DNA from: Fimbriimonadaceae bacterium
GTDB taxonomy: Bacteria; Armatimonadota; Fimbriimonadia; Fimbriimonadales; Fimbriimonadaceae
DNA: 64,000 bases
Assembly (NCBI GenBank): GCA_026129685.1
Contig: JAHCHO010000001.1
Location: 310,001 to 374,000 of the forward strand
Direction of reading: 5' to 3'
Shown one piece after another: positions 17,711 through 48,982 of the stretch; position 1 is the first letter of the stretch; each line of letters begins with the position of its first letter. The translations under genes and the position numbers were made by a program. The notes beneath the pieces were generated by a model. That model did not search any database and was not told the DNA's origin. It saw only the letters and a program-made list of their open reading frames with translations.

Positions 17711-18391
17711 CTAAGCCTTCTCGGCTTCCGCCTCCGCCTCGTGAAAACTCATGACGGCGGTCGGAAGGTCGGGATAAACACCGTACATCTGCATGAAGCC
17801 GAGCGAAGAGAACACCTCCTCCACCTTCGGCTGGAGGTTGGCGAAACGCACGTCGCCCCCCTTGCTCCGCGCCGCCATCCACGACGCCTGAAGCGCCCGG
17901 AAACCGGCGGAAGCGATGTACACCACCTTCGAGAAGTCGAGCACCACTTTGCCCGCGCCCCGGTTCAGTTTCTCGATCAGTTCTCGCTGCAGCGTCGGAG
18001 CCGACGAGGCGTCGAGTTCCCCCTCGATCGCCACAACGTCGATCGGCTCGTCCCCGTTCCGAAAACTCGCCAACCCCGCTTCGGCGGTTCCGTAGATCGC
18101 GAAGTCCGCACTGAAGCCGGTGAGGTCCAACAACTTGCCCACGCTCTCCGGGAGGCAGCAAAGCTTGAGGTCGCCGTTGTGCTTGCGGGCAAGGTTCTTC
18201 CCCACTTGCAGCGCCCGCAAGCCCGCCGAGGCGAGATACGTGACCCCCTGCAGGTCCACGAGCACCCGCGGGTTGCCGCCCTCGATCGCCTCGTGGAGCC
18301 GACGATCCAAAGCCGGCGACGTCGCCGCGTCCAAGCCGCCCACGACCCGCACGACCATGACCTCGTTCTCCAACGTCGTTTCGATGTTCAT
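17711..18391 (-). CDS. Tandem-STAS anti-sigma-factor antagonist
   Basis: 226 residues made of two STAS domains (about 1-105 and 115-220). Each has the phosphorylatable serine in the same context: YLASAGLRAL (Ser55) and YIASAGFRAL (Ser161). Single-domain SpoIIAA/RsbV proteins are the norm; a fused pair with both serines intact is unusual. In partner switching the unphosphorylated form binds the RsbW-like kinase. The start is ATG 18391, which overlaps the kinase stop as TGATG; a GTG three bases earlier is an alternative. Neighbours are a kinase upstream and a phosphatase downstream, giving a complete phosphorylation cycle. Confidence 0.92.
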   Translation of the reverse strand: MNIETTLENEVMVVRVVGGLDAATSPALDRRLHEAIEGGNPRVLVDLQGVTYLASAGLRALQVGKNLARKHNGDLKLCCLPESVGKLLDLTGFSADFAIYGTAEAGLASFRNGDEPIDVVAIEGELDASSAPTLQRELIEKLNRGAGKVVLDFSKVVYIASAGFRALQASWMAARSKGGDVRFANLQPKVEEVFSSLGFMQMYGVYPDLPTAVMSFHEAEAEAEKA

Positions 18392-18813
18392 CACGCGGTA
18401 GTTTGGCCGAAACAGCGCTTCCGAAGCGTCACTTCGTTGCCGGTTTGACCGAGGGCACGGTGATTCGCCTCGTCCGTGAGCGTTCGTACAAGGTGGATTC
18501 CCAGACCGCCCGGTACCCGGTCTTCGAGCGGGGACGTCAGATCGGGCTCGGGCGCGTCGAGCGGATCGTGAACCGGCGCTTGGTCCGCCACCTTCACCAC
18601 CAAGGAGTCCCGGTCGCGGTCCAGATCGATCGTCACGTCGCCCGGCCCATGCCGGTAACCATGCTCCACGACGTTCGTCACCAACTCGTCCACCGCCAGG
18701 ATCAGATGGCCGAGCGGTTCGGCCTCCGCGCCCATACGACGGCCCCCCTCCGCCAGAAAGGTGCGGACGGTGGCGAGATTCTCAAACTTGGCGGCCACGG
18801 TGAGACGTCTCAA
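18391..18813 (-). CDS. Anti-sigma-factor serine kinase, RsbW-like (HATPase)
   Basis: 140 residues of the GHKL ATPase fold. The N box AVDELVTNVVEHGYRHG and the G2 box PGGLGIHLVRTL are clear. The G1 region reads VADQAPVHDP, where most family members have DxGxP, so the first glycine is replaced and nucleotide binding might be altered. The start is uncertain: TTG 18813 gives RRLTVAAKFENLATVR, which matches the usual N-terminus of these kinases; a GTG lies 15 bases later and the frame also extends upstream to 18900 over the divergent gene. No sigma factor gene is nearby. Confidence 0.85.
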   Translation of the reverse strand: MRRLTVAAKFENLATVRTFLAEGGRRMGAEAEPLGHLILAVDELVTNVVEHGYRHGPGDVTIDLDRDRDSLVVKVADQAPVHDPLDAPEPDLTSPLEDRVPGGLGIHLVRTLTDEANHRALGQTGNEVTLRKRCFGQTTA

Positions 18814-18838
18814 CGAACCCGGCAAGCCTACCCTCCGG

Positions 18839-18844
18839 TACCCT
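18839..18844 (+). promoter_or_regulatory. TACCCT -10-like box, leaderless start of the methionine sulfoxide reductase gene
   Basis: TACCCT ends seven bases before the ATG at 18852, and no Shine-Dalgarno sequence is present. It belongs to the recurring TANNNT-N6/7-start pattern of this window. Confidence 0.45.
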
Positions 18845-18851
18845 TCCGTAC

Positions 18852-19286
18852 ATGAAGCCCTTGCTCGACGAGATCCGTTCCCTGCCTCTGAAGGGAACAA
18901 GCCTTCGTCGCGCGGCCATGGAGACGCTGGCCCGCCTGCCCGGGTACGACTGGTGCGGCGTCTATCGTCTGGAGGGCGACGCCCTGGTGCTGGACGAGTA
19001 CGTCGGCGCGAAGACCGACCACGTCCGTATCCCCGTCGGCGTGGGCGTCTGCGGAACCGCCGTCGCCGAGAACGCCAACCAAGTGATTGCCGACGTCCGC
19101 AAACTCACGAACTACCTGGCGTGTTCGACCCAGACCCGCTCGGAGATCGTGGTGCTTGTTCGACGCGGGAGCGAGGTGCTGGGCCAGATCGACGTGGACG
19201 GCCACGAAGTGGGCGCGTTCGGCCATCGCGACGAAATCATGTTGGAGGAACTCGCGTCCCTCCTTGCCGAGCGTTGGGAGGATTAA
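18852..19286 (+). CDS. Free methionine-(R)-sulfoxide reductase (GAF domain)
   Basis: 144 residues, a single GAF domain. The family signature is visible: GVCGTAVAENANQVIADV followed by LACSTQTRSEIVV. The conserved cysteines are Cys67 and Cys91, and an additional Cys35 is in DWCGVY; fRMsr uses such cysteines to reduce free Met-R-O. The alternative is a generic GAF sensor, but the GVCG-AC-RSEIV spacing favours the reductase. It is transcribed away from the partner-switching cluster and converges on rho. Confidence 0.8.
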   Translation: MKPLLDEIRSLPLKGTSLRRAAMETLARLPGYDWCGVYRLEGDALVLDEYVGAKTDHVRIPVGVGVCGTAVAENANQVIADVRKLTNYLACSTQTRSEIVVLVRRGSEVLGQIDVDGHEVGAFGHRDEIMLEELASLLAERWED

Positions 19287-45903: not shown

Positions 45904-46452
45904 CTAACGAGCGACTGCCCTGACATCCTGCCGCTTAAGTCGCATCTCGAACACCTTCTTCAGCGTGCCGTCCGCCTGCTTGACCTCGCCCGTTTCGACC
46001 CACTCTCCGTCAACGAGCCGCATCGCGTAGTGCATTTTGCCGAGCATCGGGTGGAGAACCTCCCACGTATAACTCAAGTCGCTTACCGTGAGCGAGAAGT
46101 CGCCCTTCAGCCCGTTCGCCAGGTGAGACTCGATGCGGTAACCCCCCTTCGGATCCCACGACACAATGCCGAACGCGCTGTGCACGGTAACTTCCTTGCC
46201 CTGGATGCTCGCCGCGTGCGTCCCCTCGACCGCCAAGATCGTGCCGTCGCACTTGAACCGCACTTCCTCGCGGCTCTTGAACTCGGACCGGCGTCCGCCG
46301 AACTCTATCCATCCCGAACCGCGTCATTCGCCTTCGAGGAACGCGAGCTTCTTCATCGCGTCCCTCTTCTTGGCCGCCCCGAAATCGGGCGCTTGGGCGA
46401 AACACGCCGTGGCGGCGACGATGGCGATGGCGAAGAAGGCACGCTTCAACAT
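45904..46452 (-). pseudogene. Exported lipocalin-like (DUF1579-type) protein interrupted by an in-frame TGA
   Basis: Read through, the frame encodes 182 residues. MLKRAFFAIAIVAATACFAQ is a signal peptide. After FLEGE comes TGA at 46324-46326 (codon 43), then RGSGWIEFGGRRSEFKSREE and the rest of a beta-barrel-like domain to the stop at 45904. Families with the pattern LxGxWxGxGW have Trp at this position, so TGG to TGA is the simplest explanation. It may be a true nonsense mutation or a base-calling error. The downstream part has its own GTG at 46263, but no signal peptide. TAGGAT seven bases before ATG 46452 supports the 5' end. Confidence 0.75.
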
Positions 46453-46465: not shown

Positions 46466-46586
46466 CGGCGGCTTCCCGGCGACCCGTGCCCTTCGGCCCA
46501 CCGCGCGCTATTCCGAGGCGTCGGATCTCGGCCTTTGCGCAGCCAAAGCGTGACGCGATATATTCATTCTATATTCATGCTAGACC

Positions 46587-46615
46587 TTGACAAGCCCTGC
46601 CACCTACCGTAGAAT
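46587..46615 (+). promoter_or_regulatory. Near-consensus sigma-70 promoter of the Cys-rich operon
   Basis: A perfect TTGACA at 46587-46592, a 17-base spacer and TAGAAT at 46610-46615. The hexamer ends six bases before ATG 46622, so the expected transcription start is the A of the start codon. It is the strongest promoter I see in the window. Confidence 0.85.
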
Positions 46616-46621
46616 CAAGCC

Positions 46622-46894
46622 ATGTGGAGCCGGAATCGCCCCTTCCGAGAGTGGGCTGTAGCCCTGCTCGTTTTCATCGCCACGTTCTGCGTTGCCTCGC
46701 TCGCCCTTGCCGTCGAGTGGCCTCCCTGCTCCAAGAATTGCCGGCAGTACGGTCCCGGAGGGGGTTCGCCCAATCCTACGATGTGCCAGGCCTGCTGTCT
46801 GCAGGACTGCAGCACTCCGATCGCCCATCGGACGCAGTGCCTCAACTGTTGCGTGACCGCTCCGCCCGAGCCGGACTGCACGATAGACGGATGA
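46622..46894 (+). CDS. Small secreted cysteine-rich protein
   Basis: 90 residues. An N-terminal hydrophobic segment (WAVALLVFIATFCVASLALA) is a signal peptide; the mature part of about 57 residues has ten cysteines, several paired (CSKNC, CQACCLQDC, CLNCC). No known fold is recognised. Such spacing suggests disulfides or metal binding outside the cell. It is the first gene of a four-gene operon behind a near-consensus promoter and is predicted to be translated from a leaderless mRNA. Its stop overlaps the next start (ATGA). Confidence 0.8.
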   Translation: MWSRNRPFREWAVALLVFIATFCVASLALAVEWPPCSKNCRQYGPGGGSPNPTMCQACCLQDCSTPIAHRTQCLNCCVTAPPEPDCTIDG

Positions 46895-47352
46895 ACCGGA
46901 CCTATCAGATCGCACTGGCTTCCGGCTTGACGGGGGTGATGGCGGCGGGTCTGTGGTTCGCCTTTCGCCCCTCACCTCCCTTGCTCGCGACGCCGGAAGC
47001 CGCCCAGAAGGCCGGCTTCTCCAGTGCCGAAAGCTATAGCCGCTCCCTCGCCCTTATTGACGAGATGCACAAGCATGGTCGTCTCTCACCTTCGAGTCTG
47101 GAAGCCTACCGGCACATGGCTGAGAACGAAGGCGAGAACGGCGAACTGCTTTCCCTGACCATCATGCTCGACTGTAAGGACCGAGAGCAGCGAAAGGCGC
47201 TACTTGCCATCGCCACCAAGGCCTTGCTCAACTCGGACTACCAGCCCTTGCCCGCCCGTGTTTTCGCCAACTACCGAATAGACACTCCGGACCTGGTCGA
47301 TGGGTTCATCGCTCGGCACCCCGAAGGGCGTCAACGAGCGGAGGGAAAGTAG
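46891..47352 (+). CDS. Membrane-anchored protein of unknown function
   Basis: 153 residues. One N-terminal membrane helix (YQIALASGLTGVMAAGLWFA) is followed by a helical domain: FSSAESYSRSLALIDEMHKH, LSLTIMLDCKDREQRKALLA and FANYRIDTPDLVDGFIARHP. No family is recognised. The start overlaps the Cys-rich gene stop as ATGA and the next gene starts three bases after its stop, so it is part of the same operon. Confidence 0.8.
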   Translation: MNRTYQIALASGLTGVMAAGLWFAFRPSPPLLATPEAAQKAGFSSAESYSRSLALIDEMHKHGRLSPSSLEAYRHMAENEGENGELLSLTIMLDCKDREQRKALLAIATKALLNSDYQPLPARVFANYRIDTPDLVDGFIARHPEGRQRAEGK

Positions 47353-47355
47353 AAA

Positions 47356-47928
47356 GTGCAAAAGCGTACCGGCTGGTCCCTCGTCGAGCTTCTTGTGGTG
47401 ATGGCGATTTTCGCTCTGTTGGCAGGGCTGCTTTTCCCGGTGATGCATTCCGCCGAGAAGTCCGCAAAGAGTGCCGCCTGTCTCAACAACCTGTCTCAGA
47501 TCGCCCGGGCAACGAGCCTCTACGTCGCCGATTACGACGACTGGTACCCGGCTTCCCTAGACGCTTGGGACAAGGCACGCACGACCGTCGGCGAGCGCTA
47601 CCCCAACGTTCCCGCCTTTCAGGACGCCGTCGAACCCTACCTAGGGCACAGGCTGGCGTTTCGCTGCCCGGACGACCATGGGACGGTGGACCAGGACGGA
47701 CGGCCCGTCGCCACCCCCACCATGTTCGAGGCCGTCGGCTCTAGCTACACCTCCCATAGTCTGCCCCGGGGGTTCCCCCTGTCGAGCGCGCTTCATTGGA
47801 ATTCGACCTTGGTCTGGCAGGCCACGGGCCAGGTTCATCGCGAGGCGCCAACCTACTCGCACGTCCTGTACTACCAGGTCCATGCAGATTGGCACGTGAG
47901 CGTTTCCAAGACCGTGAGGTTGCGATGA
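47356..47928 (+). CDS. Pseudopilin-like protein (prepilin N-terminal motif)
   Basis: 190 residues from GTG 47356. VQKRTGWSLVELLVVMAIFA is a prepilin leader in which Trp replaces the usual Phe before the SLVELL helix (W-S-L-V-E). A SAACLNNLSQIARATSLYVA region and YDDWYP follow as in DUF1559-like pseudopilins, and the C-terminal part contains FRCPDDHG. It probably enters a type II secretion or type IV pilus-like apparatus. The next gene overlaps its stop as ATGA. Confidence 0.88.
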   Translation: MQKRTGWSLVELLVVMAIFALLAGLLFPVMHSAEKSAKSAACLNNLSQIARATSLYVADYDDWYPASLDAWDKARTTVGERYPNVPAFQDAVEPYLGHRLAFRCPDDHGTVDQDGRPVATPTMFEAVGSSYTSHSLPRGFPLSSALHWNSTLVWQATGQVHREAPTYSHVLYYQVHADWHVSVSKTVRLR

Positions 47929-48089
47929 GTCGCGCGCGGTTCCTGCTCTGGATGCTCCTCGGGCTCGCGGCCCTCGGATCGGTCGGTCTCGCTCTTCAAC
48001 GCGCCGAGCGTGAGCGGAAGCCCTGTTGCGCCGTTGCCGGCGACCCCGTGCCGCCGGCGATGCCTTCTCGAGCAAACGCCCAGGGTTGA
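47925..48089 (+). CDS. Small membrane or secreted protein with a CC motif
   Basis: 54 residues: one hydrophobic N-terminal segment (FLLWMLLGLAALGSVGLALQ), then a short tail containing KPCCAVAGDPVPPAMP. The start overlaps the pseudopilin stop (ATGA). The vicinal Cys pair echoes the CC pairs of the first protein in the operon. Function unknown. Confidence 0.65.
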   Translation: MSRARFLLWMLLGLAALGSVGLALQRAERERKPCCAVAGDPVPPAMPSRANAQG

Positions 48090-48293
48090 CGAACCCCCGC
48101 GCCGCCCTCCCTAGAGACGGGATCGCGCCAACTCGCCGGTCCGGCGGGAATCCCACCCGGAAATCCGCGCGCCCTCCAAGGATCATTCGATGATGAAGAG
48201 CGTCTATGACCCAACCTGGCCTCCCAAACCCGGGAATCCGACCACGCACGAGTCAACGCACCTCCGACTCGTCTTGCCTCGTCTGGACGAGTG

Positions 48294-48982
48294 ATGCTCC
48301 CGTTGATTCTCGCCACCATGACCGAAGCCCCCCAGATCGCCGACGTCGCCGAATTCCGTGCCCCCATCGTGAGGCGACTCGAGGCCGAGTGGCCCAACAA
48401 CCGCACCTTCACCATCGTCTGCCACGGCCACAGCGTCCCCGCCGGCTACTTCAAGACCCCCGAGGTCCGGCCGTTCGACAGCTACCCCCACCTCCTCCAC
48501 CGCGCCCTGAGCGCCAAGTATCCGCACGCCGTGATCAACGTGATCGTCACCGCCATCGGGGGCGAGGAAAGCGATCGGGGCGCCGCCCGCTTCGAGGACG
48601 ACGTGCTGTCCTCAAACCCGACGTCGTCACCCTGGACTACGGCCTCAACGACCGTCGCATCGGCCTCGACCGGGCCAAGCTCGCCTGGGAGGCGATGATC
48701 GAGCAAGCCAAGGCGAAGGGCGTCGCCGTCATCCTCCTCACCCCTTCCTGGGACCTCGGCGTGAATATGGCCTCCTCGTCCGACCCCCTTCCCCAGCACG
48801 CCGACCAGATCCGCCAACTCGCCCGCAAGCACCGTGTCGCCCTCGCCGACTCCCTCGAGGCCTTCGTCCAGGCGTTCGCCGACGGCACGAAACTCGAATC
48901 CCTGATGTCCCAGGTCAACCACCCGAACCGTGCGGGCCACGAGCTGATCCTCAAGGGCCTCCTTCCATGGTTCGGCGCGTAG
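48294..48982 (+). pseudogene. SGNH/GDSL-type hydrolase, broken by a single frameshift near 48605
   Basis: The first frame (from ATG 48294) reads a normal N-terminal half: FTIVCHGHSVPAGYF with the nucleophile-serine block and NVIVTAIGGEESDRG. After RFEDDVL the sense continues in another frame: VLKPDVVTLDYGLNDRRIG, then VAVILLTPSWDLGVN and VNHPNRAGHELI, which hold the Asn of block III and the catalytic His of block V. A single missing base between about 48600 and 48612 restores one 229-residue protein. This could be an assembly error or a recent mutation. An ATG at 48318 is an alternative start. It would be a cytosolic or exported acyl esterase. Confidence 0.8.

Follow-up and report, generated by a model that had tools for sequence, protein, structure and literature searches.

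Comparison of gene content across Armatimonadota genomes indicates that three adjoining genes in a 64,000-nucleotide stretch of DNA from a Fimbriimonadaceae bacterium (the whole stretch analysed, hereafter the window) form a conserved, fast-evolving cassette. The first gene (g1) encodes a cysteine-rich, putatively secreted protein, the second (g2) a membrane protein with a single N-terminal transmembrane helix and the third (g3) a pseudopilin, and in the window they are followed by a small membrane protein with a CC tail (g4). Most likely, each cassette would load its own mini-protein onto a shared pseudopilus machine via its own pseudopilin.

Recurrence of the Cassette

The original prediction would have been refuted by a failure of the four genes to co-occur in other genomes, which is not what was seen: the cysteine-rich, one-helix and pseudopilin genes do recur together. 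The CC-tail gene turned out to be a rare variant. Searched with a g2 profile of 21 rows, 66 of 291 Armatimonadota genomes had matches at E up to 1e-3 (at most 12 candidates per genome were scored), many of the matches being weak and of HEAT type. Forty-one g2 loci were then scored by one rule. They comprise the G104 locus and, with G174 left out, 40 of the 41 matches at E up to 1.1e-12. A pseudopilin lies directly downstream at 34 of these loci, a Cys-rich secreted ORF directly upstream at 28 and both at 26, the last being spread over 20 genomes with family codes f1, f12 and f13. By the same automated rule g3 is absent from seven loci and g1 from 13, although the rule misses the g1 of G160 (the first, with an in-frame TAA) and that of G157b (which has no clear signal segment). 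A DsbA-like gene is found downstream at 19 of the 41 loci. G131 and G043 were read and stand outside this count.

Since 21 of the loci had served to build the g2 model, the fair test lies in the 19 others (without G104), where a pseudopilin was found at 14, a Cys-rich ORF at 10 and a DsbA-like gene at none; this set includes near relatives (G010, G100 and G101; G161 and G163; G058 and G045). The DsbA-like gene is thus optional. As a control, 28 of the best other pseudopilins of the relatives (L047-L074) were inspected with 1.5 kb per side, which is enough for the upstream test and short for the downstream one. A Cys-rich ORF was upstream of one of the 28, unconvincingly, and a DsbA-like gene was downstream of none. 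HEAT matches in G146, G148, G022, G078 and G180 had no pilin by the rule.

The window's genome itself holds a second cassette on another contig (Table 1), which has neither a DsbA-like nor a CC-tail gene. The congeners G001 and G002 gave no cassette in g1 and g2 profile searches and the cassette is therefore dispensable.

Table 1. Coordinates of the putative operon in the window and of the second cassette in the same genome.
Feature	Position	Strand	Details
Promoter, sigma-70-type, leaderless spacing	46587-46615	+	-35 TTGACA 46587-46592, spacer 17, -10 TAGAAT 46610-46615
g1, Sec-type secreted protein with WPxC, CxxCCxxxC and CxxCC	46622-46894	+	90 aa, ten mature Cys; helical hairpin predicted at low confidence
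g2, N-terminal TM helix and all-helical domain, HEAT-like in relatives	46891-47352	+	153 aa
g3, pseudopilin, GTG start, prepilin motif G^WSLVE	47356-47928	+	190 aa; Pfam/NCBIfam matches
g4, TM protein with CC tail	47925-48089	+	54 aa; same kind of gene in G014
Second cassette, contig C4 (L385)	17736-19084	minus	g2 18346-18861, pseudopilin 17736-18383, Cys-rich ORF upstream

The Putative Operon and Its Promoter

The promoter matches the sigma-70 consensus at 11 of 12 positions and its -10 element ends six bases upstream of the g1 ATG (46622), exactly as predicted. The exact pattern occurs three times in the 3.94 Mb genome, compared with zero for a reversed control pattern. At up to two mismatches it is the single match within the 64 kb window, but at least one match arose in 62 of 100 shuffles. 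This spacing had been regarded as special. However, when ORFs chosen by GC3 were used, 18 of the 454 ATGs considered had TANNNT starting exactly 12 nt upstream, whereas distances of 25-60 averaged 2.0; an earlier version of this statistic with crude gene calls had been uninformative. The peak points to widespread leaderless starts in the genome. The promoter of the putative operon, though strong, is nothing out of the ordinary here.

The tight coupling of the four genes was also borne out, with ATGA overlaps at g1/g2 and g3/g4 and a 3-base gap at g2/g3. GC content is highest at the third codon position in g1, g2 and g3; g4 differs (0.78/0.59/0.74 for the three positions). When searched against Pfam and NCBIfam, g3 alone had family matches (prepilin-type), and g1, g2 and g4 had none.

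Both genes that flank the window cassette look broken when their translations are read. Just upstream, on the minus strand (45904-46452), a gene for a small secreted-type protein has an in-frame TGA (EGE-stop-RGSGWIEF), perhaps a former W site altered by mutation or by assembly error. Just 3′ of the cassette, on the plus strand (48291-48982), a GDSL-type esterase-like gene, so assigned by reading its translation without a family search, is frameshifted near 48610. This second gene separates the cassette from the TlpA-like gene 1 kb away that had been proposed as part of the system, and a TlpA-like gene is not a regular neighbor in the cassettes read; the proposal that it belongs to the system is not supported. 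A second promoter-like site (TTGTCA-16-TAGAAT, 46566-46593) overlaps the operon promoter on the minus strand and points in the opposite direction; the intergenic region 5′ of g1 may be able to fire both ways.

The Cysteine-Rich Protein g1

The original prediction of a ten-cysteine protein of secreted type holds up, g1 having 11 cysteines of which 10 follow the signal segment. WPxC, CxxCCxxxC and CxxCC are common to all ten g1 sequences of alignment A4, and across ten close cassettes the Cys columns are 0.92 identical compared with 0.17 for the other mature columns. CxxxCxxxC is present in 24 of 28 g1 sequences, where shuffling gave 4.8 on average and at most 10; a two-helix Cys pattern is present in 22 of the 28, against a shuffled average of 1.8. 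Both patterns were picked after the sequences had been seen. An AlphaFold2 model built from four sequences places two helices across the Cys motifs, weakly (pLDDT 65), and the only PDB matches of the g1 profile are vicilin alpha-hairpinins at a non-significant E of 0.5. Two g1 groups align profile-to-profile over the first Cys motif with a probability of 92.5. The helical spacing of the cysteines and the divergence of the loops suggest that g1 is a disulfide-stapled helical hairpin.

In a g1 search with the single window sequence, the true relative among the matches listed was L010 in G003, which has g2 and a pseudopilin behind it; the rest were mostly chance, as judged from translations for 29 of the 31 listed (the window's own match excluded). 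Searching by Cys spacing brought in G104 and two loci of G068, and a g1 profile of five rows added G029, G076 (three loci), G139 and G160. Four of the 12 genomes returned by that profile, at E 0.005-0.009, were taken as chance, and of these G273 was read. Searching genome contigs for the Cys pattern gave at least 118 stretches; among those listed, L137, L175 and L192 are real, all from Armatimonadota, and other phyla may have the pattern too. In viral DNA none of 34 stretches was judged real. The g1 of G160 (L118, 5329-5664) resembles window g1 in the loop after WPxC. It is interrupted by an in-frame TAA, yet the rest of its cassette has open reading frames throughout.

The Membrane Protein g2

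A single-sequence g2 search returned one clear relative, in G014 (E 1.3e-21). The order-wide search returned the window's genome (G000) and G014, while G087 was rejected after its ORFs had been read. Scanning named genomes with a g2 profile gave no match. The window protein has no Pfam family of its own. Among seven relatives tested, PF13646 (HEAT_2) reached its cut-off of 27.7 in two (L341, 28.9; L346, 27.7), scored below it in four and was absent from one. Profile comparison joins the window/G014 pair to this HEAT group (E 5.4e-6, probability 86) and joins the remaining g2 group likewise. The AlphaFold2 model of window g2 is weak (pLDDT 49).

The Pseudopilin g3 and the Assembly Machinery

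The pseudopilin assignment of g3 stands, with PF07963 at 24.8 bits (cut-off 21.2) and TIGR02532 at 21.5 (cut-off 16.3). The leader that had been called unusual is an ordinary prepilin motif in which W replaces F at +1. PF07596 (DUF1559/SBP_bac_10, pilin-like) scored 15.5 bits, below its cut-off of 23.3. Window g3 has two cysteines, and extra cysteines occur in some cassette pseudopilins.

A first-pass pilin tree split cassette and control pseudopilins cleanly; a more careful tree did not fully do so. In the careful tree the cassette pseudopilins cluster (3 changes needed vs. 20.9 when shuffled) without forming one clade, and window g3 is a very long branch within a supported set (99/99) that contains 27 ordinary pseudopilins. 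Both trees are without L058 and L071, from which no pilin was obtained. PilB/GspE-family ATPases were found in all 12 carrier genomes tested, with 10 matches in the window's genome, and no secretion-machine genes were seen adjoining the cassettes read. Pseudopilins themselves are numerous, with 44 matches in the window's genome and from 1 to at least 53 per genome across 61 relatives' genomes. The related Fimbriimonas ginsengisoli is described as fimbriate and as having 79 PulG-like genes, with its pili assigned to attachment (PMC4072686).

The Fourth Gene

The CC-tail gene is present at two loci, the window and G014; 13 cassettes lacking a DsbA-like gene were read for it. In G014 the gene encodes a membrane protein of 44 aa with GGCCSK at its end and lies behind g2 and g3, and g1 is missing. 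Window g4 is not DsbA-like, having 54 aa, the CC pair only and no Pfam or NCBIfam family.

A membrane-anchored DsbA-like protein is instead the last gene in nine of the first 11 g1 loci, the exceptions being the window and G003, where none adjoins. CxPC and the cis-Pro TP are invariant in the nine aligned proteins, whose PDB matches are DsbA relatives (E 1.2e-17). Thioredoxin_4 was above cut-off in four of five tested, and the fifth (L120) has LCPPC and no Thioredoxin match. Searching with the DsbA-like proteins yielded ten further cassettes with g2, a pseudopilin and the DsbA-like gene, nine of which have a Cys-rich g1, often with a different Cys pattern. These came from 18 regions read, out of 20 taken for the strongest matches outside the first nine (L345 and L347 were dropped for their short length), and are a selection and not a complete survey. 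In one of them, G157b, the pseudopilin frame is split. The cassette proteins scored E 1e-54 to 1e-85 and others 2e-35 and weaker with a search model built from the cassette proteins themselves; they would seem to be a sub-lineage tied to the cassette. By the motif rule, no pseudopilin lies near a number of DsbA-like matches from genus g92 and elsewhere (L313, L316, L317, L319-L325).

At L343, L344, L352, L336 and L337, DsbA-like genes adjoin larger Cys-rich secreted proteins, and at some of these a 351-367-aa protein is nearby instead of g2.

Comparison With Known Systems

One close parallel is the type II secretion system (T2SS), whose substrates fold, often with disulfide bonds, before export. 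g3 shares the prepilin motif with the minor pseudopilins GspG/H/I/J and weakly resembles their models. However, it falls far below every equivalog cut-off (gspG 26.2 against 88.85, gspJ 17.4 against 64.85, gspH 16.2 against 80, gspI 13.9 against 44.35), and in the present cassettes a single pseudopilin accompanies a single small cargo together with a HEAT-like protein. The Verru_Chthon cassette (TIGR02596 and sister models) belongs to another phylum and likewise contains uncharacterized pilin-like genes, and we know of no Cys-rich cargo in it; g3 scored 16.4 bits with TIGR02596, against a cut-off of 70. The name Verru_Chthon was not found in our literature search. DsbA and BdbD thiol oxidases have their counterpart in the fourth gene of most close cassettes, a gene that the window cassette lacks. 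The vicilin-derived alpha-hairpinins of plants consist of two helices with CxxxC spacing. The spacing in g1 is similar, a likeness only, whereas g1 has CC pairs and more cysteines and comes from a different kingdom.

No description of the cassette was found in the literature searched, with subscription papers and preprints outside its scope. Neither the g1 family nor a link of g2 to g1 is in any family library searched, Pfam, NCBIfam and PADLOC among them. The parts are of known kinds and what appears to be new is their combination, the g1 family and the link of g2 to g1.

Possible Function of the Cassette

The reading that we favor, at somewhat less than even confidence, is that the cassette serves a type IV filament or type II secretion machine as a cargo module. 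The recurring gene order, the spacing of the cysteines, the DsbA-like neighbor, the prepilin motif, the assembly ATPases and the abundance of pseudopilins speak for it. Against it stand the loci without g3 or g1, the optional nature of the DsbA-like gene, the position of g3 in the careful tree, the weak AlphaFold2 models and the congeners without a cassette. Judging from its signal segment, g1 would be exported by Sec and its cysteines oxidized in the periplasm, giving the stapled hairpin. The oxidant would be the membrane-anchored DsbA-like protein of the cassette, where present. In the window other oxidases of the cell may serve, and the CC dithiol of g4 could be a small relay in the membrane. 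g2, whose membrane-anchored HEAT-like domain is thought to face the periplasm, could hold g1 or hand it over. g3 would be processed by prepilin peptidase and join the pseudopilus, and as a dedicated pseudopilin it could cause its one cargo to be pushed out or displayed on the surface. The earlier suggestion that a disulfide-rich peptide is at the center of the system gains support from the DsbA-like gene that comes next at 19 of the 41 loci.

The same genes can be read differently. g1 might be a structural piece of the g3 pilus, such as a tip cap or adhesin, and not a released product, as would fit a pseudopilin of its own traveling with each g1, extra cysteines in some cassette pseudopilins that could bond to g1, and the attachment role proposed for F. 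ginsengisoli pili. With only two cysteines in window g3, and one G076 copy that has g1, g2 and the DsbA-like gene but no adjoining g3, we consider this rather improbable. A little less probable still is that g1 acts as a stapled peptide of bacteriocin type, with g2 conferring immunity to it from the membrane in which it is anchored and the pseudopilin and oxidase used for export. g2 does stand directly behind g1, overlapping it in the window; the g1 loops vary while the Cys scaffold stays fixed; several different copies can occur in a genome (three in G068, three in G076, four g2 loci in G155); the distribution is patchy; and there is the weak, non-significant likeness to plant alpha-hairpinins. 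Yet g2 is common to cassettes with completely different g1 proteins and no g1 was found at eight of the 34 loci with g2 and g3, both of which suit a pure immunity role poorly, and PADLOC gives no match for the cassette save a weak HEAT match.

Metal binding by g1, in a metallothionein-like or iron-sulfur manner and without disulfides, could explain its many CC and CxxC motifs, but we regard it as very unlikely, because the signal segment and the frequent DsbA-like neighbor point to oxidation and g1 matches no Pfam or NCBIfam family. That unrelated small ORFs merely stand behind a good promoter might be argued from the lack of family matches for window g1, g2 and g4. Given that the gene order recurs in other genomes, with a control, and that the same genome carries a second cassette, we exclude such a chance neighborhood, leaving it next to no credence.

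If the cassette is indeed a cargo module, it hints at an undescribed way to secrete or display disulfide-stapled mini-proteins in one little-studied phylum. Pseudopilin genes are present there in tens per genome with little explanation so far beyond attachment. A cassette linking single pseudopilins to single small cargoes, often with a private oxidase, offers a testable reason for this expansion. A bolder proposal, which we find possible though doubtful, is that a diversifying family of secreted, disulfide-stapled helical hairpins extends throughout Armatimonadota, each with its own pseudopilin, HEAT-like membrane adaptor and often thiol oxidase, so that the dozens of pseudopilins per genome would in part be cargo-specific delivery pistons and not attachment pili. 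The g1 proteins could be natural stapled mini-protein scaffolds, with cysteines fixed and loops free, and the cassette might provide a genetically compact export route for disulfide-rich peptides.

In family f2 (L401, L402 and L404), a HEAT protein gene and a pseudopilin stand behind what reads as a small sigma-factor-like gene, with no clear Cys-rich gene. This arrangement is possibly a second kind of cassette.
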